A DNA stretch of 64,000 nucleotides from an uncultured delta proteobacterium (GCA_903911145.1 CAIWCD010000023.1:62001-126000); one strand, 5' to 3'; positions 6,001 through 64,000 are shown, counted from the first letter of the stretch. Notes: generated by a model not told the origin, from the sequence alone. Numbers and translations: made by a program.

Positions 6001-7280
6001 CGATTGCAATCGGGGATATCGACGGCGATGGCAACGCCGATATCGTGACCGCGAACAACAGCACCAACGACGAAACCGTCCTGCTCGGCAATGGCAATGG
6101 CACGTTCCGCAGCGCGCTGACGGCGGGCGCGGGAGTGGGGCCGAGTTCAATCGCGATCGGCGACGTGAACGCGGATGGCAAGGCCGATCTGCTCGTCGCC
6201 AATGGCGGCGGAAATGGCATTGCCGTGCTGCTTGGAAATGGCGACGGAACGTTCCGAGGCCGGACGGACGCGCTCGGCGTCACTCCAAGCGGTCCCGATC
6301 AGGTCTGGGTCACCATCGCCGATCTCAACGGGGACGGGCGGCCGGATATGGTCGCGGCGATCTCTGCGAGCAACTCCGTCTCGGTGCGTCTGGGCAATGG
6401 CGACGGCACGTTCGGGACTGCCGTCATCTACGCAGCTGGGTCGACGCCAGAGAACGTCCTGATCGCCGACCTGAACCGCGACGGCAAACCCGACCTCGTG
6501 TTCGCCGATTATAACGACAGCACGGTCACTGTATTGCTCGCGACCGGCGGCGGCGCATTTGCGCCGGCGGTGAGCTATCCCGCGGGTTCGGGTCCGCAAG
6601 CGCTGGCGCTCGGCGACCTCAATGGCGATGGCAAGCTCGATATCGTCGTGGCGAACATCGACGGCCACGTCAACGTGCTTTTCGGCACTGGCACGGGCTC
6701 GTTTGCTGCGGCGACTCAATATGACTTCGGTTCCGACCCGCTGTCGGTGGCCGTTGCCGATCTCAATGGCGATGGGATGCCCGATATCGTTGTCGCCGAC
6801 TGGGTCGCGAATGTCGTCGGCGTCTTGATCAATGCGGGGGCCGGTACATTCAACAGCGCTGTGAACTATGCCGCGGGAAGCGGTCCATTCGCTGTATCGG
6901 TTGGCGATGTCAACGGTGATGGAAAGCCGGATCTCGTCGTCGCGAACAGCAAGAGCAACACGGTCTCGGTGCTGCTCGGCACGGGCACCGGTACGTTCGG
7001 AGCCCAGACGACGTACGCCACCGGGAGCTTTCCAGTTTCGGTGGAAGTCGCAGATCTGAATGCCGACGGGAAGCTCGATCTGGTGGTCGCGAACGCGCAC
7101 GGTTACAGTGCGTCGGTGCTCTACGGAAATGGAAACGGGACGTTTGCGCCCGCGGTCAGTTACGCACTCGGCACGACGCCGGATGCCATCGCCATCGCCG
7201 ATTTGAATGGCGATGGCATCCTCGATTTCGTGGCTGCCAACGAAGGAGGCGCGACCGTCTCCGTGCTGCTCGGGCATTAA
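3..7280 (+). CDS. Giant surface/secreted repeat protein (Big_1 + IPT/TIG + FG-GAP), 5' end outside window
   Basis: The reading frame is open to the left edge of the window, so the N-terminus and any signal peptide are missing. The ATG at 33 falls inside a repeat and is not the true start. From about 33 to 2570 there are eight invasin-like Big_1 Ig repeats of about 100 residues. Two Cys-paired Ig-like repeats follow (about 2580-3070), then three IPT/TIG domains (about 3085-3800, each with a TAVAFNGTPAQSF-like core) and a linker. The last kilobase-scale block is 21 FG-GAP/VCBS repeats carrying the calcium loop DxNGDGxxD. These families build extracellular stalks and integrin-alpha-like beta-propellers, so an adhesin or cell-surface role is inferred. 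There is no C-terminal anchor or sorting domain: the protein ends on the last repeat. The gene faces the minus-strand secreted-protein gene only 14 bases away. Ligand and function are unknown. Confidence 0.85.
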   Translation, partial: PVAASASISTMTVAPGSVIADGVTTTTIVILANDVDGNPIPGEAVAVSVSGNENLLVVPGAAPSAVASGATGPDGSFTAVLSSTRAETKIITATLGADGVSATLSGSVLFVAGPPSAIGSILVASPNVVAADGNATSSLFVLAADASGNPLSALPIAFSSTGSGNHFSAAIGMTNASGSFSSTLSSTQAEQKTVSAKLGTGDSSITLTAPVSFGSNAAVATRVTLTASPTTVIADGTATTMLTATVVDANGVGLRGQPITLGATGSAYAFSHGGNSGQTASGTTDVDGMFTATLSSSRSGTVVVTATSGTLTASTGVSFVAGPASAAQSSLSASPSTAGLGGSITLLIALADAQGNPIAGQAFTLSADGTNNTFSASGATSGSTLAATTSATGIFIAQLSSSKAQSETISLTLAGGGGPLLTSSVTFSNTTLVLALSLSASPTQITADGATTTTLTAKVVDQNGSGVSNKTVSLSASGSGNTFTHALSSGSTVSGTTAADGTFIATLSSTHAATEVVTATQGALSASTAVTFIAGAPSVPNSTLTATPSSVGVGSASALIVLLVDAKGNPVGGQSFTLSASGTGNTFSAPGMTSGGALTGTTDARGIFLAQLTSSDAQSETVSVTLVGTRGVLLNATVVFVAPTVVPQLALVASPTSLVADGSATTSVTATVTDQNGNGLSGKTVTLSASGSSNTFTHAPNSGTTVTGTTSADGTFVATLSSTRAQSEVIFATSDALHASTPISFSAGAALPANSSLTATPAAVVTGGAVSLVLLLADANGNPVGGQSFNLSASGAGNTFAAVGAQSGSTLTGTTDASGIFVAQLSSGVVQSETISATLSGAHSALLTTTVSFIGAGGALDTTLTQEPPSLTHLTSATFSFVGSGQVSFVCALDGATASVCSSPMTFTGLTVGAHTFAVASVDPLGNRDASPATWSWTIDTTKPSTILDTTPAAQSTSPVATFTFHATKLNCTFACTIDSGAPSACASPAVYSSLADGSHTFTVQATDPAGNVEVTAQSDSWNIYTGPTFTTFSPSSGASGTSVTLTGTNFSGATAVAFNGTPAQSFIVDNATQIRAVVAVGTTSGTISVTAPKGTATSSTRFLVAPSIASFTPSNVGAGTSVVITGLNFTNASAVAFNGSAAQSFTVDSDTQITAVVAAGTTSGTLSVTTPVGTATSSSSFTFFLPPTISTLAPGARMVGSGVTLNGKHLLGATAVLFNGTPVTWFHVDSAAQIRAVVPTGATTGAVSVTTPGGTGTSPSFTVLAPPNVVSYSVASSVSGCTPVAYTVSQAQSWPVDIDVEYDASGNNFSAIGPYPRATQAASAPATDDGVARVATLPNPGKHQTFLWNTSADFGKTSASNVAIRVVASIDGHPGTSSLASVTGLTVGDGLSFAAQTSYAVGTYPIGVAVGDFNSDGKLDVIVTNDSDNTISLLLGSGAGAFNAAVPYAVGSNPVAAAVGDLNGDGKPDVVTVNSGAGTVSVLLGDGSGGFATAVNYSAGSVPYHVAIGDLNGDGKPDLVVANDTSPGGISVLLGRGDGTFNAAVDYAVGGHPYAVAIADLSGDGKLDVVTANTSDDTISVLLGNGDGTFAAAIDVAVGAFPYSVAIGDLNGDGIPDIATASFNSSAISVLLGRGDGRFSTVANYAAGSSPVGVVIGDMNGDGKPDLVVSNYAGSGSVLLGIGDGMFAAARSYGGGANPYSVAIGDMNGDGKLDFVLANSGDNTISVLLNTEPGACESSFMAPVVAATGTNPQGIVVADLNGDGKPDLISANAGGNTISIELGKGNGMFAAAVSYASGVRPVAVAAADLNGDGIVDVVVANATGNSLSVLLGNGDGTVAAMVNYAVGSTPEAIAIADINGDGKPDLLVTNSDDSSVSVLIGNGNGTFVGAVNYVVESSPYGLAVGDINEDGFPDLVTANSGANTISVLLGSGTGTFGSAVSYSVGTSPRAVAIGDFNGDARPDIAVANSGSNTVSLLVGAGDGTFAAAVSSPVGGTPVAIAIGDIDGDGNADIVTANNSTNDETVLLGNGNGTFRSALTAGAGVGPSSIAIGDVNADGKADLLVANGGGNGIAVLLGNGDGTFRGRTDALGVTPSGPDQVWVTIADLNGDGRPDMVAAISASNSVSVRLGNGDGTFGTAVIYAAGSTPENVLIADLNRDGKPDLVFADYNDSTVTVLLATGGGAFAPAVSYPAGSGPQALALGDLNGDGKLDIVVANIDGHVNVLFGTGTGSFAAATQYDFGSDPLSVAVADLNGDGMPDIVVADWVANVVGVLINAGAGTFNSAVNYAAGSGPFAVSVGDVNGDGKPDLVVANSKSNTVSVLLGTGTGTFGAQTTYATGSFPVSVEVADLNADGKLDLVVANAHGYSASVLYGNGNGTFAPAVSYALGTTPDAIAIADLNGDGILDFVAANEGGATVSVLLGH
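33..2570 (+). repeat. Eight Big_1-type Ig repeats in two alternating flavours
   Basis: Repeat starts recur as (L/T)xASPT...ADG or LTATPSS motifs. From the third repeat on they alternate. One flavour carries DQNGxGLSGKTVTLSASG-like text, the other DAxGNPVGGQSFTLSASG-like text. The higher-order period is therefore about 640 bases (dimer units starting near 666, 1303 and 1945). This looks like duplication of a two-domain unit. Confidence 0.75.
4177..7277 (+). repeat. 21 FG-GAP/VCBS repeats, probably three seven-bladed propellers
   Basis: I count 21 calcium-loop motifs of the DLNGDGKPD type, spaced about 49 residues apart and each followed by a VLLGxGDGTF strand. Extra linker sequence occurs after the 7th (an insert with a lone Cys, near 5200) and again after the 14th (near 6270). 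This divides the array as 7+7+7. Confidence 0.8.
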
Positions 7281-23427: not shown

Positions 23428-24131
23428 TGGGCGAACGACTCCTGGAGAACAACGCTCCCGATGTGCCAATCCGTCGTGCCGCCGCGAAGCACGCGCACCC
23501 ATACGTTGAGCATATGGCCCTGCGGGCCACCCCCGTCGGTACCAACCCCCATATCCGCCGGTTCGATATGGATTTCGCGACAGAGCACTGCCGGGTTGCT
23601 GGTCACAAGCGCGCTGTCGCAGCCCTTGCCAACGCCCCCGCTCGTACCCCAGGCGGTGACCGCAGCATATCGTTGGCTAATGGTCTGTGCGGTATCGACG
23701 GCATTGGAATCGCCGAGGACCACGATCGGTCCAGTCATTAAATCATCACCATAGTTCGAATTCCCGGGGTCGCCCGTAACGGGAGGGTTGTTCGGCCAAT
23801 CGATGACATCCATCATCCAGCCGCCGGTGTTCGCAGCAACATCGGGATTGAACGTCCCCGTGGTGACCATCGCGGAGCAGCTGAACGTCCCCTGGATATC
23901 GGTCGCCACCGTGCTGCAGATGGTCCCCTTGTTCTGTCCTGCGAAACGCTCGAGACGGCTCTGCGCAAACTCGGACATCTGTGTTCGCGCAGCCGCCCAG
24001 CCATTGGCGGTCGAGGCAACGGCCAGGCCGCCCATCAGACCGAGCAGCGAAACGGAAAGGATCGCGAACGCGACCATGACCTCGAGAAGCGACATTCCAC
24101 GCGCCGTCGCGGCGCTCCGATTAGTAGTCAT
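23424..24131 (-). CDS. pilV: PilV-like minor pilin
   Basis: The product is 235 residues. The prepilin motif ARG-MSLLEVMVAFAILSVS has Glu at +5 and the hydrophobic helix continues to GLMGGLAVAS. Cys residues recur in the C-terminal domain (GKGCDSALV, NPAVLCREIHIEP). The start overlaps the pilY1 stop by 11 bases and its stop overlaps pilW by four, so the operon is translationally coupled. It would form part of the initiating tip complex of the type IV pilus. Confidence 0.82.
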   Translation of the reverse strand: MTTNRSAATARGMSLLEVMVAFAILSVSLLGLMGGLAVASTANGWAAARTQMSEFAQSRLERFAGQNKGTICSTVATDIQGTFSCSAMVTTGTFNPDVAANTGGWMMDVIDWPNNPPVTGDPGNSNYGDDLMTGPIVVLGDSNAVDTAQTISQRYAAVTAWGTSGGVGKGCDSALVTSNPAVLCREIHIEPADMGVGTDGGGPQGHMLNVWVRVLRGGTTDWHIGSVVLQESFAQ

Positions 24132-27100
24132 GGCCGGTCTGCCGGATGATCCACCCGAGCATGCTGGTTGGACTCAATCCCACGTTGTTGATGGAGTGCT
24201 CCGCTGCCGTGTTGTTGGTGCTCGGGACCACAGTGGTGGCGATCCCCTGCGTGGTCACCGTGACCACCGTCACCTGCCCGGCGGTATTGGTGCTGACCGC
24301 GACCGTTCCACCGATTCCCCCGACTCCAAGATATCCACTCAGCGGACTAATGGCCGTGCTCGTCGAGGTGGACAGCAGATTCAGCGAATAAGTCGTTCCG
24401 TTCAGCGCACTGGCATCGCCACGTTTATCGATATCCGTGACCGTCCCGGACGTACCGCTGAAGTAGAGCTGGTCATTGGTTGCGACAATCGAACCGAACA
24501 CACGCTTGCCACCGGTCAGCCACTGCGGATATCCAGACGGCTCCTTGCCAACTCCCTTCGCCGTCATAATCGCCTTGTCTCCCGTGATGGCAAGATCCGT
24601 TGCTTGATAACGGCCGCTGGCTGCAAGCGGAATCACGTGGATGGCACCGTTGGGAACAACAGGAAGCGCAGAGACGGTATCCGTGCCGGCGGTCCCGTAT
24701 GCGAGCATCGTCTGGCCGGCGTAATTAAAGAAAGTCGTTCCCGCAGGCTGTGACGTGGGGATGAAGAACAGCGTTGACAGGGTGCTGATCGGCTGCGGCC
24801 CGCCATCCTGTGTATATCCATATGCATTGCTGAGCGAGAAGTTGCAGGTGGCCGGAGCCGTCGCGCAGCTGGGCGAGGTGGCATACGAAGTCAGGCTCAC
24901 GCCCGTCGCCGCGTCGAGCTCCCAGAGGTTTCCGGTGTCGTCACCGACATAGACCGTATCGATGAGGTTGTTGCCGGCCTTTGAGAGCAACGTCACGCCA
25001 GCCGGCGGAGTATTTCCGACGCCGCTCGCCTGGCCGGCAGGCATGCTCACCGTATCGTACGGGCTCGCCCACTCCCAGAGCTTCTGTCCCGTGACGATAT
25101 CAATGGAGAAGACATAGACGCCATTGCCTCGCGGCTCGTTTGTGGCGACGAAGGCCGCGAAGACCGGCTGCCCGTTGCGCCGCATTGCCGCGACGCTTAC
25201 CGACTGGCTCGCGCCGAGGTGTCGATAGTTATAGGGTCCGCTGGTTGAAAGGCCCGGGTCCGGAGCCGGGCCGCCCCCGAGTGCAGCCAGCGTCGGCGCG
25301 TTCGTGGGCAGCTGATAGAGCGCGGGGGTGCAGCCCGTCGCTGAGGCACGGCAGTTGTTCTGCCATTGGAGCGCGTAATCGGTGCTCCCGACTGCCGCCG
25401 AATCGGTTGTCAGTCCGGTATCGTCGTCGGTGAGCGGCACGGGAGCATACGCGAGCGACGAGCCATAGGTCGACTGCAGGTCCCAGAGCAGCGTGGGCGC
25501 GAGGGGATTGGTAATATCCAGTGCGAATAGCTCTTGATTGTTACCGCCAGCTGAAGCAACCAGCACGGTGTGCCAGCTGCGACCTGCGGCAATCCCAGCC
25601 GCGCTGAAATTTCCGAAGACATCGATCACGGCTGGCGAAGAGTCCACCGCCGCTGAGTTGCTCGCGAGATACGGCAGCTGGCCAGGCGGAATGAACGACC
25701 AGAGCTCCGTCAGATTGGCCGGAGGAGACGAGAGCGACAACGTGCGCGGGAACACGGTCGCCGCGCTGGGATTGAGGCCGCCGACCGTTGATACCGGCCC
25801 CGTATACCCGACGTCTGCTCCATCGCTGCGCGTGACGTAGAAGGCATGCAGCTGGCCATCGAGCGCGCCCGCATAGGCCACTGTGGGCCGCGCCTTCCCG
25901 CCGATATTGGCCACATATGGGGTATCAGGAATGACCGCCACCTGGGAGTGGACGAACCCACCGAGCGACGAGAGATTGGCTGTGGCAACATCGGTCCCAT
26001 ATTGGCGAAGATCGTTGCACTGCGCGTCTGTCGGGTGGGCCTGCACGGCATTGACATCACCGATGGTCGAGTCGAGACCGCTGGTGGTTGCAAAGCAGTA
26101 CCCGCGCACCATCTGCACCAGCTCCATGGCCTTGTTCAGCTGCTCCGGATCGGTCAGCACGTTCGCGATCTGCGTCTGGTCCGCGGCGCTCGCGCCATAG
26201 TCAGCGCCGATGTCGGTCGCCGTCAGATTAACCTCGAGCGCCTCTTGAAGATCGCAGACCGTCGTCTGGCCATTGGCGCCCGCGACGGTATTCGGTCCCT
26301 GAACCATTCCAGCATATGGGCCCGGCTTATTCAGTCCGGCGTCCAATGCGACGTTACCGACGTGATACATGTCGAGACAAGTCGTCGGCGTGACCTGCGG
26401 GACGTCGAAGTTGACCGGCATCCATCCGTGCTGGATCACGTTGCCGGTATAATAGCCGCCGCTTTCGGTATCGACGTGCCCGTCGAGATACGTGAAGAGG
26501 TTTCGCGTCGCGGCAGTCACCGGAGATGCGTTGGTTGCATACTTGGTTGCAAACCGGCCAAACGTGTCCGACGCGCTCGCCACCAGGTCCGTGGCGAAGG
26601 TCTCGTTGACGGTGCTCGTCTGCAACGGATGAATGCGCAAATCGCCCTGGTGATAGGGGAAGTGCCATTTCGATCCAAGTGTAACATTGAGCACGCGCCA
26701 CTCCGCGGGCACGGTGACGTTCGTGACCTCCCGATAGGTCGGGACGAAGACATTGCTTTGATAGAGCGTCGGGCCGATATATGCCGTCTCGGAGGTCGTG
26801 AGCACGAGGCCCAGCGCAAGCAGGGTATTGAGTGCAACGCGAGTGCCGGCGACATCGGACGTATAGTTATGACCGCCCAGATAGACCATCTGCGCCTTCT
26901 GGCTATTATTCCCTCGCTGGATATAGGTGAAGTTATCGACCTTCGCCATCGTGCGCGCCGAGGAAGCGCTGGTCAGCAGGGACTTTGTCAGAGTCCCGAT
27001 CGTATAGGCCAGAGGCAATACGCCCGGTCCGTAGATCGCTCCCGGCTCGGGGAAATAGTTCTGCACCACGCCAGAGAAGGCATACCAACGGAAATCTCCG

Positions 27101-28800
27101 ATCTGTGCGAAGGCATTCCCGGGGGCCGGGTATTGAATGCAGCTGCCTCCCGCGGTGGTGGTGGGATCGGTGCAGTTGTTCAACCGCACGTCACTGAACC
27201 CATTGTTGATGTTCAGCGCAGTCGTATCGATGGTTGTGCTGCAGATTCCCGCGCCTCCATCGAGGCACGCGAGGCTCTGCAGTCGGCCGTCGATCATCGG
27301 AGTTGGGTAGTTACCGCCGCCGTCATTCGCCCCTTCGAACGTTTCAATGCTGGCGCACTCTGCCATCACGCCGTGGTTGGGCTGGTTCATGAACGTCGCG
27401 ATATTCTGCAGGCCGGCGTCCATGCAGTCGGTGTAGCAAGACTTGGCGGGACCAGGTTCAAAGTGTGGTGCCCAGAGGACCTGATATCCACCGCCATCGG
27501 AACGGCCATTGCTGAGCGCCCCGCCGGCGATATCCGCCACGTCGAGCATATCGAAGATCTGACCGCCATCCGCCCCGATCGGGCAGAGCGCGGAGTTACC
27601 AGCGGCGGTGTTATTCAGATTAAATGCATTCGCTGGGCATCCACCGGCAGAGGGAAAGTCCAATCCAGCCGACTTCAAGTAGTATTGGAGCTGCGTCCCC
27701 TTGACTCCGGTCATGCTCGAGGTGAAGCAGGTTGCGCCCGTCTTTCCATGCACCACTCCCCGTTCGTCCAGATAGCAACCGCCGGTTGATTGAAGCAGCG
27801 CGACGACGGGAGGCCGACCATTCATTCGCGAGCTATCGTCTGCCGTGAAGGGAAGCAGCGCCTGGTGAATATTCACGCGGTGCGTGTTGGCGTAGTTGAG
27901 GCCCGAACCCACGCCAGCGTCATTGTCATTGGAGCCGAAGGCCGCAACGACCGTGGTTCCACTGGGAGTCGCAGTCTTGACGGAGCAGTGGCCGACATTG
28001 TGCTCATTTCCATTGATGTTGTTGGTGGCATAGGCGCTGAAGTCGATATAGTTGCCCGAGCTATCCTGAAACTTCGGGGTCAGCGAACTGAGCATTTCAA
28101 TCAACGCGGGCACGTCCGACGCGGAGATCACGAACGCGCCGCCGCCATAGCGCATGACATTCACTCCGTTGGCAGCGTTGGCCGTGACGGAGAGAAAGTT
28201 GGGAAACGCGAGCGCATTGACAAAGTTCTTCATCGTTGTCGATGAGAGAGCGAGACCGCTCGGGTCGACATAGTCCGAGCCCGTGCCGGTCACGGTATCG
28301 AGCGTGACGATATCCTGTGTATTCGACGAGCCGAGGTGGAAGGCCACCTGCGTCGCGGGAGTTGAATTGCTCGCGCTTCCGTCAATGATGATATCGCAGC
28401 CATCGTTCCATGTTGGGTCGTTGGAGGCCGGGGCCGGCGTGACTGCCGTCGCGCCCGCATAGACCGCGCTCACATTGGTCGGAACGCATCGATTGGGCGA
28501 GCCCTTGTTCCCGGAATAGACCCAGTGAACCGTAATGCGCGAGGTGAAGGCTGAACCCGAGACGGGATACGAGGCAATCCCGTCGTCCGCGCGGAGGATA
28601 TCGTAGATGAGTCCGTAGACCGACGGCATGCCGCACGCGTCCTGGTATGGCGACGACGTGGGAATGATGATTGACCCGGCAGGGAAGGTGGTCTGCGCGC
28701 TGGCGGGAGCGGCCCACAGGAGGAGCGCCGCGGCGGCGGCGAACGCGAAGGCGAAACAAACGCGCTCGCGGCGAAGACGATTGTGGCGTGGGCGGAACAT
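24121..28800 (-). CDS. pilY1: PilY1-like type IV pilus tip protein
   Basis: The product is 1,559 residues from ATG 28800. A strong AGGAGG lies five bases upstream. A signal peptide ends at PASAQTT. The N-terminal half (to about 900) is a Cys-containing, Asn/Gly/Thr-rich extracellular region without a recognisable vWA MIDAS motif. From about residue 960 comes the PilY1/PilC beta-propeller: RPTVAYAGALDGQLHAFYV, ELWSFIPPGQLPYL, RSWHTVLVASAGG and DTVYVGDDTGNLWELD (near 1281). The last is in the position where Pseudomonas PilY1 has a calcium-binding Asp-rich loop, but the usual DxDxDGxxD pattern is not seen. PilY1 governs pilus extension/retraction and adhesion. It leads the operon, with the minor pilins after it. 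Confidence 0.88.
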   Translation of the reverse strand: MFRPRHNRLRRERVCFAFAFAAAAALLLWAAPASAQTTFPAGSIIIPTSSPYQDACGMPSVYGLIYDILRADDGIASYPVSGSAFTSRITVHWVYSGNKGSPNRCVPTNVSAVYAGATAVTPAPASNDPTWNDGCDIIIDGSASNSTPATQVAFHLGSSNTQDIVTLDTVTGTGSDYVDPSGLALSSTTMKNFVNALAFPNFLSVTANAANGVNVMRYGGGAFVISASDVPALIEMLSSLTPKFQDSSGNYIDFSAYATNNINGNEHNVGHCSVKTATPSGTTVVAAFGSNDNDAGVGSGLNYANTHRVNIHQALLPFTADDSSRMNGRPPVVALLQSTGGCYLDERGVVHGKTGATCFTSSMTGVKGTQLQYYLKSAGLDFPSAGGCPANAFNLNNTAAGNSALCPIGADGGQIFDMLDVADIAGGALSNGRSDGGGYQVLWAPHFEPGPAKSCYTDCMDAGLQNIATFMNQPNHGVMAECASIETFEGANDGGGNYPTPMIDGRLQSLACLDGGAGICSTTIDTTALNINNGFSDVRLNNCTDPTTTAGGSCIQYPAPGNAFAQIGDFRWYAFSGVVQNYFPEPGAIYGPGVLPLAYTIGTLTKSLLTSASSARTMAKVDNFTYIQRGNNSQKAQMVYLGGHNYTSDVAGTRVALNTLLALGLVLTTSETAYIGPTLYQSNVFVPTYREVTNVTVPAEWRVLNVTLGSKWHFPYHQGDLRIHPLQTSTVNETFATDLVASASDTFGRFATKYATNASPVTAATRNLFTYLDGHVDTESGGYYTGNVIQHGWMPVNFDVPQVTPTTCLDMYHVGNVALDAGLNKPGPYAGMVQGPNTVAGANGQTTVCDLQEALEVNLTATDIGADYGASAADQTQIANVLTDPEQLNKAMELVQMVRGYCFATTSGLDSTIGDVNAVQAHPTDAQCNDLRQYGTDVATANLSSLGGFVHSQVAVIPDTPYVANIGGKARPTVAYAGALDGQLHAFYVTRSDGADVGYTGPVSTVGGLNPSAATVFPRTLSLSSPPANLTELWSFIPPGQLPYLASNSAAVDSSPAVIDVFGNFSAAGIAAGRSWHTVLVASAGGNNQELFALDITNPLAPTLLWDLQSTYGSSLAYAPVPLTDDDTGLTTDSAAVGSTDYALQWQNNCRASATGCTPALYQLPTNAPTLAALGGGPAPDPGLSTSGPYNYRHLGASQSVSVAAMRRNGQPVFAAFVATNEPRGNGVYVFSIDIVTGQKLWEWASPYDTVSMPAGQASGVGNTPPAGVTLLSKAGNNLIDTVYVGDDTGNLWELDAATGVSLTSYATSPSCATAPATCNFSLSNAYGYTQDGGPQPISTLSTLFFIPTSQPAGTTFFNYAGQTMLAYGTAGTDTVSALPVVPNGAIHVIPLAASGRYQATDLAITGDKAIMTAKGVGKEPSGYPQWLTGGKRVFGSIVATNDQLYFSGTSGTVTDIDKRGDASALNGTTYSLNLLSTSTSTAISPLSGYLGVGGIGGTVAVSTNTAGQVTVVTVTTQGIATTVVPSTNNTAAEHSINNVGLSPTSMLGWIIRQTGHDY

Positions 28801-29066
28801 TGAATCCTCCTGCTGCAGTCGGTGCGGCATCAGAGCAGACCTTGGGCTGCCGCGCTCGTTTTTGTCTCGAGGAGCGCAACAGGCCAATCGGGACCATACG
28901 CAAAGCGACGGCCAGATGGAGATGAGTTCAACTCCTCTGGCGGCCCGTGTTTTCGCGACGGCCCGGCCGAGTTGCCCTCTCTTGCTTCGATACTCTTTGC
29001 GTGCTCGGCAAACTGGTGCGTATCGGCGGATGTACGCGTCTATCAGCGATCGAATAGGCTGCAGCG
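28801..29066. other. Divergent intergenic region upstream of pilY1 and the methyltransferase
   Basis: The 266 bases hold the pilY1 ribosome site (CCTCCT on the plus strand, 28806-28811). An imperfect bulged stem lies at 28912-28940 around GAGTTCAACTC. No confident -35/-10 or -24/-12 promoter, riboswitch or coding region is visible to me. Confidence 0.5.
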
Positions 29067-29828
29067 ATGCTCGAACTTGGGAACGCGGAGCTGGTGCCGC
29101 GCGGTCGTTGTGTGCAGGGAGACTCACGCGAGGAGCAGAGCTTCCAGCGCGCGTTGGAAGGGGCGCGGGCAAACCTGCTCCTCACCGACCCGCCATATTG
29201 TCTCCTGCAGCGGCGGCGCAAGGGCGGCGATCTGCGCGATAAGAAAGAGCGCAAGATCGATCATGAGATGGTCGGGCGGTTTCCCGACGTGCGCAGCTAT
29301 CGGGCCTTTACCGAGGGCTGGCTGCCGAAGGCCGTCGCGCGATTACAAGGCAATGCGCCGCTGGTGATCTGGACCAACTTTCTCGGCAAGGAGCCCATTC
29401 GCACGGTCGCGCGCGCGTGCGGATATGGCGCGCTCTGGGGCGAGTTTGCCTGGGCCAAACGAACGCAGCCGGGCGACGGAAATGAGATCCTGTTGCGCGT
29501 GTATGAGGTCGCGCTTGTCCTGGGGCGCGAGCCGTTGCCGCCGCTTGCGCACTCAGCTGCGCCGCGCTGCTGGTCGGTTGTCGCGGGATACGACGACGAT
29601 GGCGAGGCGCAGAAGTTCGGCGGCCATCCCAATCACAAACCATTCGGCGTGATTGAGCCTCTTGTGCGTGCCTATTCGCAGCCGGGCGAGCTGGTTCTCG
29701 ATCCGTTCGCGGGAAGCGGTTCACTGCCCGCGGCCGCGCTGCGCTTGGGGAGGAACGCTGCCTGTATCGAATTGGATCGGGAGTGGGCGGGTCGCGTTCA
29801 ATCGCGACTATCGCGAAGCGCGGGATAG
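29067..29828 (+). CDS. Orphan DNA adenine methyltransferase (beta class)
   Basis: The product is 253 residues. Catalytic motif IV is DPPY (residues 41-44, in LLTDPPYCLL), which points to N6-adenine rather than cytosine-N4 methylation. SAM-binding motif I (DPFAGSGSLPAAAL) comes later, near residue 212, preceded by HPNHKPFGVIEPLVRA. This motif IV-then-I order defines the beta class (CcrM-like enzymes). No restriction endonuclease or specificity subunit is adjacent, so it is either solitary or part of a regulatory methylation system. The target sequence cannot be read from the protein. It converges on the cytochrome oxidase operon across a 15-bp hairpin. Confidence 0.85.
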   Translation: MLELGNAELVPRGRCVQGDSREEQSFQRALEGARANLLLTDPPYCLLQRRRKGGDLRDKKERKIDHEMVGRFPDVRSYRAFTEGWLPKAVARLQGNAPLVIWTNFLGKEPIRTVARACGYGALWGEFAWAKRTQPGDGNEILLRVYEVALVLGREPLPPLAHSAAPRCWSVVAGYDDDGEAQKFGGHPNHKPFGVIEPLVRAYSQPGELVLDPFAGSGSLPAAALRLGRNAACIELDREWAGRVQSRLSRSAG

Positions 29829-55960: not shown

Positions 55961-57316
55961 ATGCCTGACGAAATCAAGCGTCCCTCCTCGACGAATCCGA
56001 CCGCTGGCGATGAGCGTCTCTCGCTCGATGAGTTGCGCGCGCTCGGTCCGCTGCTCTCGACCGCTGAGCGACTCGAGGCGCTCTCCGCGTTGCCACGCGA
56101 TCTCGCTGAGGATTACTTCTTCTCGCTCCCTCCGTTTGATCAGCTCCAGTTAATCCAGGCAATGCCTGCGACCGATCGCCGGTCCTGGTTGCGGCTGCTC
56201 GAACCCGATGACGCCGCCGACCTCATTCAATCCTCGCGCTCCGGCGATCGCGATGCGCTGCTGGCGCTGATCGATGACGCCACTGCGCGCGAGGTGAAGG
56301 CGCTGCTTGCTTATAAGGAGGATCACGCGGGTGGTTTAATGAGCCCGCGCTTTGGTCGCCTGCGTCCGGAGATGACCGCGCAGGAGGCGGTCGCTTATCT
56401 ACGCCAGCAATCGCGCCAATCGGTCGAGACGCTCACGTATGTCTACGTGCTCGACCCGCAGCAGACACTTCTCGGCGTGATTTCGTTTCGCGATCTCTTT
56501 ACCGCCGCGCCCGAAATCCTCGTGCGCGATCTTATGAGGAGCGACGTCCGCACCGTTCCTGTCTCGATGGATCAGGAACACGTCGCGGCGATCTTTCGCG
56601 AGACCGGATTAACCGTCATGCCCGTCATCGACGAGGGCGGGCATATCCAGGGCATTGTGACCCTCGACGATATCGCGCGCGTCATGCGCGAAGAGAACAC
56701 CGAGGATATGCAGAAGATGGGCGGCACCGAGGCGCTCGGTGAGCCTTACCTACGCATCAGCTTCTCGCGCATGGTGAAGAAGCGCGCAGGCTGGCTCTCG
56801 GCGCTCTTCCTCGGCGAGATGCTCACCGCGACCGCAATGGGCTTCTTCGAGAAGGAGCTCGACAAGGCGGTCGTGCTCGCGCTCTTCGTTCCATTAATCA
56901 TTTCTTCGGGCGGTAATTCCGGATCTCAAGCGACGTCTCTCGTCATCCGCGCGATGGCGTTGGGCGAGATCCGATTGCGCGATTGGTTCCGCGTCGTGCG
57001 CCGCGAGCTGTTCGCGGGATTGGCTCTGGGGGCGGTCCTCGGCGTGATCGGCTTCATCCGCATCGCACTCTGGCACCAGCTCTTCGGAACCTATCCCGAG
57101 CACCATTGGTTGATTGGAACGACGGTGTCGCTCGCGCTGGTCGGCGTCGTTACATTCGGTACGATTGCCGGCTCGCTATTGCCGTTCATTCTGCGCGGAT
57201 TGAAGTTCGATCCTGCGAGCGCGAGTGCGCCGTTCGTGGCGACGCTCGTCGATGTGACGGGCTTAATCATCTACTTCACGACGGCGAATATCGTGATGCG
57301 AGGGACGCTGTTGTAG
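55961..57316 (+). CDS. mgtE: Magnesium transporter MgtE
   Basis: The product is 451 residues, the family length. The N-domain (about 35-135) has DYFFSLPPFDQLQLIQAM and SWLRLLEPDDAADLI. Two CBS domains (about 145-260) contain YVLDPQQTLLGVISFRDLF and MPVIDEGGHIQGIVTLDDI. The membrane part has the pore motif SSGGNSGSQATSLVIRAMALGEI. MgtE is a Mg2+ channel closed by Mg2+ bound to the CBS and N domains. It stands alone. Confidence 0.95.
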   Translation: MPDEIKRPSSTNPTAGDERLSLDELRALGPLLSTAERLEALSALPRDLAEDYFFSLPPFDQLQLIQAMPATDRRSWLRLLEPDDAADLIQSSRSGDRDALLALIDDATAREVKALLAYKEDHAGGLMSPRFGRLRPEMTAQEAVAYLRQQSRQSVETLTYVYVLDPQQTLLGVISFRDLFTAAPEILVRDLMRSDVRTVPVSMDQEHVAAIFRETGLTVMPVIDEGGHIQGIVTLDDIARVMREENTEDMQKMGGTEALGEPYLRISFSRMVKKRAGWLSALFLGEMLTATAMGFFEKELDKAVVLALFVPLIISSGGNSGSQATSLVIRAMALGEIRLRDWFRVVRRELFAGLALGAVLGVIGFIRIALWHQLFGTYPEHHWLIGTTVSLALVGVVTFGTIAGSLLPFILRGLKFDPASASAPFVATLVDVTGLIIYFTTANIVMRGTLL

Positions 57317-57717: not shown

Positions 57718-59562
57718 TCAAGTCCCCGCGAACTGCTTCTCCACGAGCCTCTTGTAGAGCCCGTTGCGCGCGAGCAGCTCCGCGTGCGTGCCGTTCTCGA
57801 CCGCCAATCCACCATCGAGCACGACGACGCGGTCCGCGCCCAGCACGGTCGAGAGGCGATGCGCGATGATCAGCGTCGTGCGCCCCTTCATCAATGTCTC
57901 AAGCGCATCGCGCACCAGCGCCTCGCTCTCCGCATCGAGTGCACTGGTCGCCTCGTCGAGAATCAGGATGCGCGGATCCTTGAGCAGCGCGCGCGCGATC
58001 GCCACGCGCTGCTTCTGGCCGCCCGAGAGCTGCACGCCGCGCTCGCCGACCAGCGTGTCGTAGCCCTGCGGAAAGCGCGCGATGAACTCGTGCGCGTGCG
58101 CGGCCTTCGCGGCCTGCTCGATCTCGGCGAGCGTTGCATCGGGGCGCGCATAGCGGATGTTGTCCGCGATCGAGTTGGAGAAGAGCACCGGCTCCTGCGC
58201 GACGGTGCCGATCTGCTTGCGCAGCCACTGCGGATCGAGCTCGCGCACGTCACGTCCGAAGACGGTGACACGGCCCGCGGAGGCGCTGGTGGCAGCGGAC
58301 GCGGAATCGCTCGCATCCGCTCCAGGCAAGGGCGAGAGCGTCGGCAAGGCGGGATCGTAGAAGCGCATCAAGAGCGACGCGATGGTCGACTTCCCCGCAC
58401 CCGAAGGCCCCACCAGCGCGACCGCTTCGTTCTCGCGCAGCGACAGATCGAGACCGCGCAGCACCGGCACATCGAGCCGCGTCGGGTAGGCGAACTGGAC
58501 CTGCTCGAAGGCCACCGCGACCGCTCCTGGCGCAGACGAGAGAGTCAGTGGCGGATTGGGAGATGCTCCCGTTCCCGGCAGAATGCGCGGCGCGCGATCG
58601 AGGATCTCGAAGATGCGCTCGGCAGCTCCGAGCGACTTCATGAAGTCGGCCCAGAGGTCGGCAAGCGTGCCCAGCGAGACGGCGACGAGCAGTGTGTAGA
58701 AGAAGAATGAGGAGAGGCCACCGACGGTGAGCCGGTGCTGCATCACGAGGTGGCTGCCGTACCAGAAGACGAGCACGGCCGCGCCGAACGAGGCGAAGCT
58801 GGTCGCTCCGAAGAATGCGCCGCCGGCCGTGGCCCGCTTGACCGCAAGTTGATACGCGCTCTGCATCGCGACGTTGTAGCGAGCGCTCTCGCCCGCCTCT
58901 CCGACGAACGATCGCACCGTGCGGATCGAGGAGATCGTCTCCTCCGCGACCTCGTTGGCCTTGGCGAGCGCGTCCTGTGCATCCTTCGAGAGCTTGCGGA
59001 TCGAGCGGCCGTAGAGCACCGCTCCGATGGCGATCGCTGGGACGACCGAGAGGATGAGCGCGGTCAGACGCGGAGATGTGTAGAGGAGAAAGCCGATACC
59101 GCCGATGGCGGTGGCGACGTTGCGAAGCACCATCGAGATGTTCGCGGAGACCGCGCTCTGCAGAATCGATGCGTCGCTCGAGAGGCGGCTCGTCAGCTCG
59201 CCCGTGCGGCGCTCGTCGAAGAAGGCGATCTCCTGATCGAGGATGGCGCGGAAGAACTGTTCGCGCAGTCGCGTGACGGCCCGCTCGCCCGCGGTCGAGA
59301 AGAGGAACGCGCGCAGCGAAGTCGCGATCGCTTGCACCGCTGCGATGAGCAGCATCCAGAGTGCGATGGTGTCGATCTCGTGGTTCGAGCGTCCGGCGAG
59401 CGAGTCGTCGATCAGCTTGCCGATGCCCTGCGGATAGAGCAGGCCCGCGAGTGCGCCCACTGCGAGGAAGATGGTGCCGAGGACCAGCCGCGATCGCTCG
59501 GGGCGGGCGATGTCGAGGATGCGGCGGAGAGTGAGCCTGCGTGTTGCGTGGGGCTTGGGCAT
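57718..59562 (-). CDS. Homodimeric ABC exporter (MsbA/ABCB type)
   Basis: The product is 614 residues from ATG 59562. A six-helix membrane domain (about 20-320) contains the EDDRR-like FFDERRTGELTSRLSSD loop. The nucleotide-binding domain has Walker A GPSGAGKST, an ABC signature LSGGQKQR, Walker B ILILDEATSALD and the H-loop IIAHRLST. An unusual 25-residue Ala/Ser/Pro insertion follows YDPALPTLSPLPG, between Walker A and the Q-loop. It may export lipid or a drug. An upstream in-frame extension is not supported. Confidence 0.92.
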   Translation of the reverse strand: MPKPHATRRLTLRRILDIARPERSRLVLGTIFLAVGALAGLLYPQGIGKLIDDSLAGRSNHEIDTIALWMLLIAAVQAIATSLRAFLFSTAGERAVTRLREQFFRAILDQEIAFFDERRTGELTSRLSSDASILQSAVSANISMVLRNVATAIGGIGFLLYTSPRLTALILSVVPAIAIGAVLYGRSIRKLSKDAQDALAKANEVAEETISSIRTVRSFVGEAGESARYNVAMQSAYQLAVKRATAGGAFFGATSFASFGAAVLVFWYGSHLVMQHRLTVGGLSSFFFYTLLVAVSLGTLADLWADFMKSLGAAERIFEILDRAPRILPGTGASPNPPLTLSSAPGAVAVAFEQVQFAYPTRLDVPVLRGLDLSLRENEAVALVGPSGAGKSTIASLLMRFYDPALPTLSPLPGADASDSASAATSASAGRVTVFGRDVRELDPQWLRKQIGTVAQEPVLFSNSIADNIRYARPDATLAEIEQAAKAAHAHEFIARFPQGYDTLVGERGVQLSGGQKQRVAIARALLKDPRILILDEATSALDAESEALVRDALETLMKGRTTLIIAHRLSTVLGADRVVVLDGGLAVENGTHAELLARNGLYKRLVEKQFAGT

Positions 59563-59719: not shown

Positions 59720-62700
59720 ATGCATCGTCTCGCTGCTGCGCTGTTCGTTGCGCTGCTGTTCTCTTCCGTCGCTGCTCGCGCAGGTGGGGAGAGCGACAGC
59801 CCGACGGTGGGGCCTGGTCCGCTCTCTCCCTCGCTCGTCCCCGAGGCACTCAAGCCGTGGATCGGCTGGTCGCTGCGCGGCCACGAAGATCGCCTCTGCC
59901 CGGCCCAGCACGGACTCGGGGGCGATGATGAGGATGGGTCGTCGCGCATCTGCCTCTGGCCCGCGCGCCTCTCGCTCGTGCTCGACGCGCACGGTGGAAC
60001 GTTCTCGCAGAGCGTGCGGCTCTATCGCGATGCGCTCGTGCCGCTGCCGGGAGACGAGACGGCGTGGCCACAGGAGGTGCGCGTCGATGGGCAGAGCGCG
60101 CCGGTGGTCGAGGCGGAGGGCGGCCCCGCAGTGTCTCTCTCATCGGGCGAGCACGCGCTCTCGGGGCGCTTCGCCTGGCACGAGCTGCCCGAGTCGATTC
60201 ACGTCCCGAAGGCGACCGGACTCGTCTCGCTCTCTCTGCGCGGGAAGGAAGTCCCGTTCGCCAGCCGCGATGCCGATGGACTGCTCTGGCTGCAGCGTGA
60301 GGAGAGCGAAGAGCAGGGCGAGGCGCGGCTCGACGTGAAGGTCTGGCGGCGCGTGATCGACGAGGTTCCGCTGCGCATCGATGCACGCATTCAGCTCGAG
60401 GTGTCGGGGAAGAATCGCGAGGTGCTGCTCGGGCGCGCGCTGCTCGAGGGCTTCACTGCGATCTCGCTCGACAGCCAGCTGCCTGCGCGGCTCGAGCCGG
60501 ATGGTCGCCTGCGTGTGCAGGTGCGGCCGGGCACGTTCCGCATCGAGCTCATCGCGCGCCATCGCGGGCCGGTCAGCGCCCTTTCGCTCGCAAGCGATTC
60601 CGCGAGCAGTGCGAACCTTCCAGACCGTCAGCAACCTGGACGCTGGGCACCTGAGGAGGTCTGGGTCTTCGCGGCGCAGCCGGAGTTGCGCGTGGCCGAG
60701 ATCTCTGGGGTGCCTGCGGTCGATCCGACACAGACGACCTTGCCGCAAGAGTGGCGAAATCTTCCGGCCTATCGGGTGCGGCCAGGCGACACGATGCAGC
60801 TCGCACAGCAGCGGCGCGGTGACGCCGATCCTGCTCCCGATCAGCTCACGCTCTCGCGCACGCTCTGGCTCGACTTCGACGGCCAAGGCGCCACCGCGCG
60901 CGACCAGTTGAGCGGCACGCTGACCCGCTCCGATCGACTTGAGATGCCCGCGCCCTCGCAGCTTGGTCGCGTGCGTGCGCAGGGAAAGGATCAGCTCATC
61001 ACGCGGCTCGCACCGCAGGCCGCGCCCGGTGTCGAGCTGCGGCAAGGGCAGCTCTTTCTCTCTGCCGAGAGCCGGACCGCGCTCCAGAACGGTATGCTCG
61101 ATGCGGTGGGCTGGGCCCACGGCGTGCGCGCTCTCTCGGCGACGCTGAATCTCCCGCCCGGCTGGCGCCTGTTGCACGCGAGCGGTGTCGATGACGTTTC
61201 GACGACCTGGCTGCAGGGCTGGTCGCTGCTCGATCTCTTCCTGCTGCTCCTCGCGGCGCTCGCCGTCGGCAAGCTGTTCGGCTGGCCGCTCGGACTCGGC
61301 GCGCTCGCGGCTCTCGGTCTGACGCTGCCCGAGGGGGGACCGAAGTGGCTCTGGCTTCTCCCTCTTGCTGCTGAGGCGCTCGTGCGCGTCGTGCCTGCGG
61401 GCCGCGTGCAGACCGGACTGCGCTGGGCGCGGTCGGGAGCGCTTCTGGCTCTGCTCCTCGCGCTGGTTCCGTTCGCCGTGACGCATCTGCGCACGGGGAT
61501 CTATCCGGCTCTCGAGCGCCAGCTGACACTCGAGCGCGAGCCGATGCATGAGGCCTTCGAAGAGCGGGTTGCGAAGGTGGCGAATGCGAGCGAACCGGCG
61601 ACCGCGCAGGCTCCGCCTCCTCCAGCGTTCGAGCAGGAGGATCGCGATGGCGTCTCGGGCTCGGTTGGGCTCGCGATGGGCAGCGGCAGCATGAAGGCGG
61701 ACGCGAAGGTAGCGCGCAGCAAGAAGATGCTTGGCCTCAGCAGCGTGCTCGCCGCAGGGGGAGAACTCCCGGGCGCCGGGTCCGCGAACCTCATGCAGGG
61801 CCAGGCGTATCGGCAGCAGCTCGATCTCTCGCAGATCGATCCGAATGCTGTCGCGCAGACAGGGCCGGGCCTGCCGTCGTGGAGCTGGCGCACTGTCTCG
61901 CTGCGCTGGAGCGGTCCGGTGGAGGCGGGCGCGCGCGTGCATCTCTGGCTGCTCTCGCCGCGCGTGAATCTGATGCTCGCGATCCTGCGCGTGCTCCTGG
62001 TGGCGCTGCTCTGGTTCAAGCTGTTCGCGCCTCGTCGTGGTGGGCTCTCGTCGCTGCTCTCGGGGATTCCTGTTTCGCGCGCTGCCGGGGCTGCTCTGGT
62101 CGTGCTCTCGCTGCTCTCGCCCGCTTCACGCGCGAGCGAGATTCCGACAGACGAGCGTCTCGATCAGCTGCGTGAGCGGCTCACCGCCGCGCCTCTCTGC
62201 GGATCGCACTGCGCTGCGACGCCTCATCTGCTCGTCGAGGCTGCCGGCTCGGCGCTCAAGCTGCACGTGCAGATCGACGCAGCGGCTCCTGTCGCTGTCC
62301 CGCTTCCCGGCGCGCTCGGCCACTGGTCTCCCGAGAGTGTTCTCCTCGATGGAAAGCCGGCGACGGCGCTCTCGCGCAGCGAGGATGGGACGCTCTGGCT
62401 CGCGCTCACCACGGGCACGCATCAACTCCTGCTCGAGGGTGCGCTGCCTGCGCGCGATGAGGTCCAGCTCGCGTTGCCGCTCAAGCCCAAGCAGCTCGAG
62501 GCGCGCCTCTCCGGCTGGACGCTCGATGGTCTGCACGACGACGGCACCGCCGAGGAGAATCTGCAGCTCGTGCGCGTGCAGCGCGGGGCTGCGAAGAGTG
62601 AACGTCTCGAACCCGGGCAGCTGCCGCCCTTTCTCGAGGTGCAGCGCGCGATCCTGCTCGGGCTGACCTGGCAGATCTCGACGCGCGTGACGCGTCGCTC

Positions 62701-64000
62701 GCCCGAGGGCGCGCCGATCACCGTCGAGGTTCCGCTGCTGCCCGGCGAGTCGATCACCTCGGCGGACGTGCGCATGCAGGACGGAAAGGCGCAGGTCGCG
62801 CTGGGCCCGCACACCAACGAGATCAGCTGGACGTCGTCGATACCGGTGAGCGGGAAGCTTGCACTCAAGGCGGCTGACGATCCCGCGTTTACCGAGGTGT
62901 GGCACCTCGAGGTTGCGCCGACCTGGCACGTCGAAGCGAAGGGAATTCCACCGGTGCACCAGGAGCCATCGGCGCAGCGCGTGCCGGCGTATCGGCCGTG
63001 GCCGGGCGAGTCGCTCGAGCTGACCATCTCGCGTCCCGAGCCTGTTTCCGGCGCGACGCTGACCATCCAGTCGACCTCGCTCTCGGCGACGCCGGGCGCG
63101 CGCACGACAGACGCGACGCTCTCGCTCTCGCTGAGCACAGGCCGCGGCGGGCCGACCAGCATCACGCTGCCGGAACAGGCTGAGCTGCAGTCGCTCTCAC
63201 TCGACGGCCGGTCGCTCCCTTTGCACCAGGAGGGCCGCGCTGTTTCGATCGATCTCTCTCCAGGCGAGCATCGTGCGCAGCTTGAGTGGCGCGAGCCGCG
63301 CGGGCTTTCGCTCCTCTACCGGATGCCGACGCCGGATCTCGGCAGAGAGAGCGTGAATGCACTCACCGAGCTGCATCTCCCCGGTCGCTGGGTGCTGCTG
63401 ACGGGCGGTCCTCGTCTCGGTCCCGCCGTGCTCATCTGGGGATTTGCGCTGGTGATGCTGCTGTGCGCATTCGGGCTGTCGCGCCTCGGCACGACTCCTC
63501 TGCGCACGCACCAGTGGGCGCTGCTCGCGCTCGGGCTCACGCAGGTCGATGTGGTCGCGGCCGCCATCGTCGCGGGCTGGCTGCTCGTGCTCGGCTGGCG
63601 TCGCAACGTGGCAGGACGCATCGAAGGCGCGCGCCGCTTCGACCTCATGCAGCTCGCGCTGATCGTCTGGACGCTGGTGACGGCGGGAGTGCTGATCGCG
63701 TCGATCGAGCGCGGGCTCCTCGGCGAGCCGCAGATGCAGGTGGCGGGAAATGACTCGAGCGCGTCGCTGTTGCGCTGGTTCGTCGATCGCAGTGGCCCGT
63801 CGATGCCGGGCGCGTGGGCGCTCACCTTGCCGATGCTCGCGTATCGAATTGCGATGCTCGCGTGGGCGCTCTGGCTCGCGCTCGCGATGGTGCGCTGGCT
63901 CCCGTGGGCGTGGGAGAGCTTCTCGTCGGGCGGGCTGTGGCGAGCGGTTCCGAAGCAGGCGCCGGCGGTCGCCACCGCGACCTCGACATCGCCTGGCTCT
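59720..64000 (+). CDS. Giant exported/membrane protein with two homologous modules, 3' end outside window
   Basis: The frame is open from ATG 59720 to the window end (1,427 residues so far). A signal peptide ends at AARAGGE. The N-module (about 40-480) is beta-rich and contains LKPWIGWSLRGHEDRLCP, then VPLPGDETAWPQEVRVDG and LPAYRVRPGDTMQL. Membrane helices lie at about 496-530 and 570-590. PGLPSWSWRTVSLRWSGPV is near 715 and another helix is at about 752-773. A second signal-like segment (GAALVVLSLLSPASRASEIP, near 790) starts a C-module. It repeats the pattern with VPLPGALGHWSPESVLLDG and VPAYRPWPGESLEL. Several more helices end the visible part (about 1235-1400). The modules are internally homologous, so the gene arose by duplication or fusion. 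I do not recognise a characterised family. Confidence 0.75.
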   Translation, partial: MHRLAAALFVALLFSSVAARAGGESDSPTVGPGPLSPSLVPEALKPWIGWSLRGHEDRLCPAQHGLGGDDEDGSSRICLWPARLSLVLDAHGGTFSQSVRLYRDALVPLPGDETAWPQEVRVDGQSAPVVEAEGGPAVSLSSGEHALSGRFAWHELPESIHVPKATGLVSLSLRGKEVPFASRDADGLLWLQREESEEQGEARLDVKVWRRVIDEVPLRIDARIQLEVSGKNREVLLGRALLEGFTAISLDSQLPARLEPDGRLRVQVRPGTFRIELIARHRGPVSALSLASDSASSANLPDRQQPGRWAPEEVWVFAAQPELRVAEISGVPAVDPTQTTLPQEWRNLPAYRVRPGDTMQLAQQRRGDADPAPDQLTLSRTLWLDFDGQGATARDQLSGTLTRSDRLEMPAPSQLGRVRAQGKDQLITRLAPQAAPGVELRQGQLFLSAESRTALQNGMLDAVGWAHGVRALSATLNLPPGWRLLHASGVDDVSTTWLQGWSLLDLFLLLLAALAVGKLFGWPLGLGALAALGLTLPEGGPKWLWLLPLAAEALVRVVPAGRVQTGLRWARSGALLALLLALVPFAVTHLRTGIYPALERQLTLEREPMHEAFEERVAKVANASEPATAQAPPPPAFEQEDRDGVSGSVGLAMGSGSMKADAKVARSKKMLGLSSVLAAGGELPGAGSANLMQGQAYRQQLDLSQIDPNAVAQTGPGLPSWSWRTVSLRWSGPVEAGARVHLWLLSPRVNLMLAILRVLLVALLWFKLFAPRRGGLSSLLSGIPVSRAAGAALVVLSLLSPASRASEIPTDERLDQLRERLTAAPLCGSHCAATPHLLVEAAGSALKLHVQIDAAAPVAVPLPGALGHWSPESVLLDGKPATALSRSEDGTLWLALTTGTHQLLLEGALPARDEVQLALPLKPKQLEARLSGWTLDGLHDDGTAEENLQLVRVQRGAAKSERLEPGQLPPFLEVQRAILLGLTWQISTRVTRRSPEGAPITVEVPLLPGESITSADVRMQDGKAQVALGPHTNEISWTSSIPVSGKLALKAADDPAFTEVWHLEVAPTWHVEAKGIPPVHQEPSAQRVPAYRPWPGESLELTISRPEPVSGATLTIQSTSLSATPGARTTDATLSLSLSTGRGGPTSITLPEQAELQSLSLDGRSLPLHQEGRAVSIDLSPGEHRAQLEWREPRGLSLLYRMPTPDLGRESVNALTELHLPGRWVLLTGGPRLGPAVLIWGFALVMLLCAFGLSRLGTTPLRTHQWALLALGLTQVDVVAAAIVAGWLLVLGWRRNVAGRIEGARRFDLMQLALIVWTLVTAGVLIASIERGLLGEPQMQVAGNDSSASLLRWFVDRSGPSMPGAWALTLPMLAYRIAMLAWALWLALAMVRWLPWAWESFSSGGLWRAVPKQAPAVATATSTSPGS

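Follow-up and report, generated by a model that had tools for sequence, protein, structure and literature searches.

A duplicated two-module envelope protein with a conserved signal-peptide-like segment at its internal junction

At the end of the analysed window (the whole stretch of 64,000 nucleotides from an uncultured delta proteobacterium) one long reading frame appears to encode two exported membrane proteins in succession, each preceded by a signal-like segment. Does this gene make one protein or two, and are the two halves related? The frame starts with an ATG at 59720 and had earlier been seen to run off the window; the flanking genome sequence (L003) shows that it continues for 72 bases past position 64000 to a stop at 64072, giving 1450 amino acids. 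The gene stands alone at this locus. Upstream lie MgtE (55961-57316) and a divergent MsbA-type ABC transporter (57718-59547), and a convergent MFS transporter follows downstream. Elsewhere the window encodes a 2415 aa protein with many FG-GAP and bacterial Ig-like (Big_1/invasin D3) repeats (33-7280, plus strand) and a 1683 aa candidate ORF without Pfam match (24121-29172, minus strand).

The initial annotation had no function on record for this family, and indeed no relative was found in Pfam, NCBIfam, PADLOC, PHROG or among PDB sequences, nor did a literature search return a paper on it. A match to the TOBE domain at E 0.06 is a chance one, and no PADLOC model for anti-phage defence was matched.

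The two halves had been described as homologous and co-linear, sharing the motifs VPLPG..WP.EV..DG, G.H.L and PAYR..PG(D/E). With profiles built from 84 full-length members, hhalign aligned residues 25-495 to residues 806-1228 over 382 columns (probability 98.1, E 1.3e-13) with these motifs inside the aligned columns, and whole module 1 to whole module 2 at E 2.9e-14, against E values of 0.10-0.55 for the reversed-profile controls. A search of the organism's 5.3 Mb genome with the module-2 profile matched, besides module 2 itself, only the N half of this protein (E 0.0023); in most of the listed homologues the module-1 HMM has an in-register match at the start of module 2. These comparisons, controls and searches together establish that the repeat is real, and by its profile alignments the protein is an ancient internal duplication. 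The module junction is free of stops and frameshifts in 83 homologues.

The extent of the repeat became apparent from two independent AlphaFold2 runs, covering residues 22-800 (pLDDT 82) and 700-1412 (pLDDT 87). Both models have the same topology, with a beta ectodomain, four transmembrane (TM) helices, a two-strand hairpin and a long TM helix in this order. The repeat unit in the models opens with a Cys pair, continues with a beta ectodomain in two parts and four TM helices, and closes with a beta-hairpin and one further TM helix (TM5); it is larger than the initial annotation described, in which the TM bundle at the end of either module had gone unnoticed. The TM parts of the halves compared alone by hhalign have no detectable sequence similarity (probability 0.6%); since they are too diverged for comparison, their equivalence rests on the models. 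The proposed inner-membrane anchor between the modules stands as far as anchoring at that place is concerned, while the single anchor gives way to a set of five TM helices belonging to each module. The QTGPGLP hairpin and TM5 reach a pLDDT of 91-97 when folded with module 1, and of 67-82, with no strands, when folded with module 2; the module border is therefore placed after TM5, at about residue 769. The features on the plus strand are as follows (a slash marks a signal peptidase site).

59720..64000, plus strand: coding sequence of the two-module protein, residues 1-1427 of 1450 (ORF, flanking genome, 83 full-length homologues)
59720..59782, plus strand: predicted N-terminal signal peptide, MHRLAAALFVALLFSSVAARA/GG (sequence, hydropathy, AxA-type site in homologues)
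59897..59953, plus strand: Cys pair C60/C78 at the start of mature module 1 (each position is Cys in 83/84 homologues)
59954..61183, plus strand: predicted beta ectodomain of module 1, residues 79-488 (AlphaFold2, pLDDT mostly 90-97; homologous to module 2)
61226..61501, plus strand: four predicted TM helices of module 1, residues 503-594 (AlphaFold2, hydropathy)
61589..61861, plus strand: variable disordered linker, residues 624-714 (pLDDT mostly <50, length varies)
61838..62026, plus strand: DP.A..QTGPGLP motif, predicted beta-hairpin and TM5 of module 1, residues 707-769 (AlphaFold2)
62027..62134, plus strand: predicted internal signal peptide with basic n-region, h-region and site SRA/SE after residue 805 (SPase I site score, n-region charge, low pLDDT)
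62198..62212, plus strand: Cys pair C827-x3-C831 at the start of module 2 (Cys in 84/84)
62213..63406, plus strand: predicted beta ectodomain of module 2, residues 832-1229 (AlphaFold2)
63434..63721, plus strand: four predicted TM helices of module 2, residues 1239-1334 (AlphaFold2, hydropathy)
63767..63925, plus strand: predicted beta-hairpin and TM5 of module 2, residues 1350-1402 (AlphaFold2)

The alignment stretch that holds the linker (601-702) varies between 49 and 145 aa among homologues. The conserved cysteines are four in number, one pair directly after each signal, with no other conserved Cys in the 84 homologues, a pattern that is consistent with one disulfide per module.

The junction runs from TM5 through a basic stretch, a hydrophobic run and a small-x-Ala site to the Cys-bearing start of module 2. 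That each module has its own signal-like segment, as originally claimed, proved correct: an N-terminal signal and a hydrophobic AxA-type segment (about residues 786-805) are both present, and the latter, which had been called a buried signal peptide with no claim as to its cleavage, is signal-like and conserved in homologues. Counting AxA motifs in a fixed window did not separate the junction (57%) from one TM control (46%), and this count was replaced by a fixed (-3,-1) score for signal peptidase I (SPase I) sites, applied in an anchored 18-residue window to the 84 homologues. The mean best score was 4.63 at the junction, 4.60 at the true N-terminal signal and 1.45 in random windows; ten TM-end controls ranged from -0.07 to 3.46, some being moderately high. 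The site at the junction is AxA in 48 of the 84, VxA in 17, SxA in 8 and TxA in 3. Ala occupies position -1 within this 18-residue window in 82/84; the remaining two have theirs a little further upstream, SYA/DD in Thioploca (L073) and TYA/QE in a gammaproteobacterial sequence (L075). The n-region of the internal segment carries a net charge of at least +1 in 79/84, and its pLDDT is about 47-61 in both models, compared with mostly 85-97 for the TM helices of the modules. In a home-made signal scan of the whole protein the junction ranked first outside the N-terminus in 54/84, the window protein included, most rival top sites lying in ordinary TM helices; the scan is partly supportive of cleavage, as support and not as proof. 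By sequence, then, module 2 is preceded by a signal peptide of canonical n-h-c form, a new finding, and an internal signal of this form with an SPase I site, as expected of a polyprotein, is conserved across the 84 homologues. Given this conservation the internal signal is probably cleaved. With a cutting site for export signals so well conserved at the junction, a single gene may give rise to a pair of partner membrane proteins.

Relatives were found in 26/147 genomes of the class and 34/195 of the phylum, a few of them as short weak matches, and 527 stretches of the GTDB species set encode relatives (80 were kept), among them Methylobacter, Nannocystis, Thiomargarita, Magnetococcales, Desulfobulbaceae, Nitrospira and Holophagales. 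The protein is carried as one ORF in Myxococcota, Acidobacteria, Gamma- and Betaproteobacteria, Desulfobacterota, Nitrospirota and Magnetococcales. In the tree members group largely by lineage, and the window protein stands beside Acidobacteria and other MAGs within a mostly Myxococcota clade. Judged by its relatives, the genome that holds the window probably belongs to the Myxococcota. Among the well-assembled copies examined, every one but L005 is a single ORF of about 1330-1750 aa with both modules; in the exception (L005/L022, G028:C49) an in-frame TAG near the end separates the last TM region. Copies from other lineages are intact. A copy on an Azoarcus megaplasmid is annotated "hypothetical protein"; this plasmid (pAZKH of Azoarcus sp. 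KH32C, L161) is mobilizable, and the family copy adjoins PPIase and L-asparaginase genes.

Genomes with the halves as two separate genes were sought, and none was found among those examined. An apparent half gene (G032, L027) is not such a split version: it starts about 15 residues past the junction behind unrelated upstream DNA, and this, in a fragmented genome, makes an assembly or decay artefact the most likely explanation. The proposal that adjacent genes for exported proteins had fused accordingly holds for its premise, two homologous exported modules in one gene; with no genome found to carry separate halves, the fusion itself is inferred, the alternative being a tandem duplication in frame with retention of the signal peptide. 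Neighbours conserved across lineages were likewise sought in 86 loci and none was found; the neighbours are lineage-local, e.g. mpl-like, or trpG-like and methyltransferase-like in Methylobacter, together with ubiquitous ABC transporters. On the whole the initial observation is confirmed, and its interpretation is partly supported and extended.

We propose, giving it about an even chance, that the gene encodes a duplicated inner-membrane protein that is cut by SPase I into two pairing subunits and acts as a non-enzymatic envelope scaffold or chaperone. Module 2 has kept a conserved signal sequence, which would still be in use. SecYEG would insert the whole chain in one pass, and signal peptidase I would cut after about residue 805, so that equal amounts of two subunits would result, one of about 785 aa and the other of about 645 aa; either would have a large ectodomain and five TM helices. 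In the predicted topology the beta ectodomain and the beta-hairpin of each copy are periplasmic, followed by TM helix 5. The subunits may pair as a pseudo-twofold heterodimer, and their M1N/OST1-like beta domains might hold polypeptides or envelope parts in the periplasm. The near-invariant charges in the 84 homologues lie at or near membrane borders. As neither a conserved catalytic motif nor a conserved acidic residue deep in the TM helices nor a conserved neighbour was found, a stand-alone, non-enzymatic role in the envelope is suggested; a scaffold or chaperone is our best guess, resting mostly on absent catalytic features. Against a cleaved polyprotein speaks that no split-gene genome was found, though occasional splitting might be expected. 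A rival account is a single uncut polytopic protein. Its internal segment would be a signal anchor, an additional TM helix that links the modules, and the AxA-like motif a remnant of ancestry or a motif for helix packing. All 84 members are single ORFs, the crude scan puts other TM sites higher in 30/84, and Ala-rich c-regions are common. However, the -1 Ala and a small -3 residue are kept across phyla at 31-49% overall identity, and the internal segment alone among the hydrophobic helices has a clearly low pLDDT, so an uncut protein seems to us a less likely, though serious, account.

As to function, the best PDB fold match of each half, searched separately, is OST1/ribophorin I (Foldseek E 1e-6 and 7e-8). 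With global TM-scores of 0.12-0.15 over the query and an rmsd of ~20 Å these matches are local similarities and a lead only. It is highly improbable that the protein is a prokaryotic counterpart of an oligosaccharyltransferase (OST) subunit aiding STT3/PglB in protein glycosylation, despite the place of OST1/ribophorin I at the top of the fold matches for both halves, because the STT3 family is absent from the organism's own genome and occurs in 13/147 class genomes, mostly non-carriers, with no co-occurrence. Lower in the fold matches of both halves are M1 aminopeptidase N-domains (150-260 columns, local) and, for module 2, inter-alpha-inhibitor heavy chain; membership in the M1 aminopeptidases was rejected, as HExxH, the zinc site, occurs in none of the 84 homologues. 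A transporter or an export channel made up of two halves with five TMs each would account for the duplicated TM bundle, a typical feature of transporters, but appears quite unlikely given TM parts that are not detectably similar by sequence, charges that are not conserved deep in the membrane, and huge ectodomains. Many lineages that carry the two-module family are known for exosortase/PEP-CTERM systems. A part in such a sorting system is nevertheless close to negligible in probability, since neither the organism's own genome nor most carriers in the class have exosortase, and the two do not co-occur. That the protein belongs, as a remote member, to the CreD family of inner-membrane proteins (anchor, beta domain, C-terminal TMs) is very unlikely as well. 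The layout is similar, module 2 weakly matches Myxococcota CreD-like proteins (E 0.0015-0.0021), and envelope integrity suffers on CreD loss (PMC4689548); yet CreD profiles and E. coli CreD give no significant match (hhalign E 0.05-0.25), the Pfam scan is empty, the TM layout differs and the family is absent from the own genome, so that membership in CreD (PF06123) was rejected.

If the junction is cut, the preferred reading of a cleaved, duplicated protein would add a clear bacterial polyprotein kept as one gene across phyla, an envelope protein of about 1,400 residues in methanotrophs, myxobacteria, giant sulfur bacteria, magnetotactic bacteria and others that has no family entry; should the likeness of its ectodomain to ribophorin I be real, it bears on the origin of that OST subunit. 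Everything joined, this would be a multi-phylum membrane polyprotein with a duplicated OST1/M1-type module, always co-translated, separated by SPase and forming an obligate heterodimer, whose ectodomain may share ancestry with ribophorin I; as a whole we regard this combination as speculative and unlikely.

Module 2 shares one homologous beta-sandwich (about residues 1095-1222) with unnamed exported proteins of Myxococcota (E 6-8e-6; reversed 0.4-0.6). These comprise gene B and a set (L219-L226) of exported proteins, 750-1050 aa long, that have beta domains in tandem and TMs at the C-terminus; they have no Pfam/NCBIfam name and differ from the two-module protein in overall architecture. The beta-sandwich of L219-L226 is common to gene B (E 8e-18) and to module 2 of the window protein. 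Gene B follows a CreD-like gene A in a Myxococcota two-gene unit (L177:3257-5810; L178:1614-4039; L189-L218); it has matches in 66/195 phylum genomes, gene A lies beside it in 30/30 loci checked, and neither gene has a Pfam or NCBIfam match.

Among named systems, CreD resembles each module in having an exported beta domain and then a TM bundle, and differs in its lack of duplication and its TM layout. OST1/ribophorin I likewise is a membrane-anchored beta ectodomain, without a sequence match to its family (PF04597) or PDB chains; unlike OST1, the two-module protein is duplicated, has five TMs per module and no STT3 partner in its genome. The N-terminal beta domain of M1 aminopeptidases and LTA4H is a local fold match to the ectodomains, which come here without a catalytic domain. 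A parallel in gene design is FbcH of Bradyrhizobium japonicum, the cytochrome b/c1 polyprotein, where one gene encodes two membrane proteins that are cut apart at an internal signal peptide. The proteins are unrelated and the halves of FbcH are not duplicates of each other, whereas the single gene, the two membrane proteins and the internal signal peptide are common to both, with cleavage predicted for the two-module protein.
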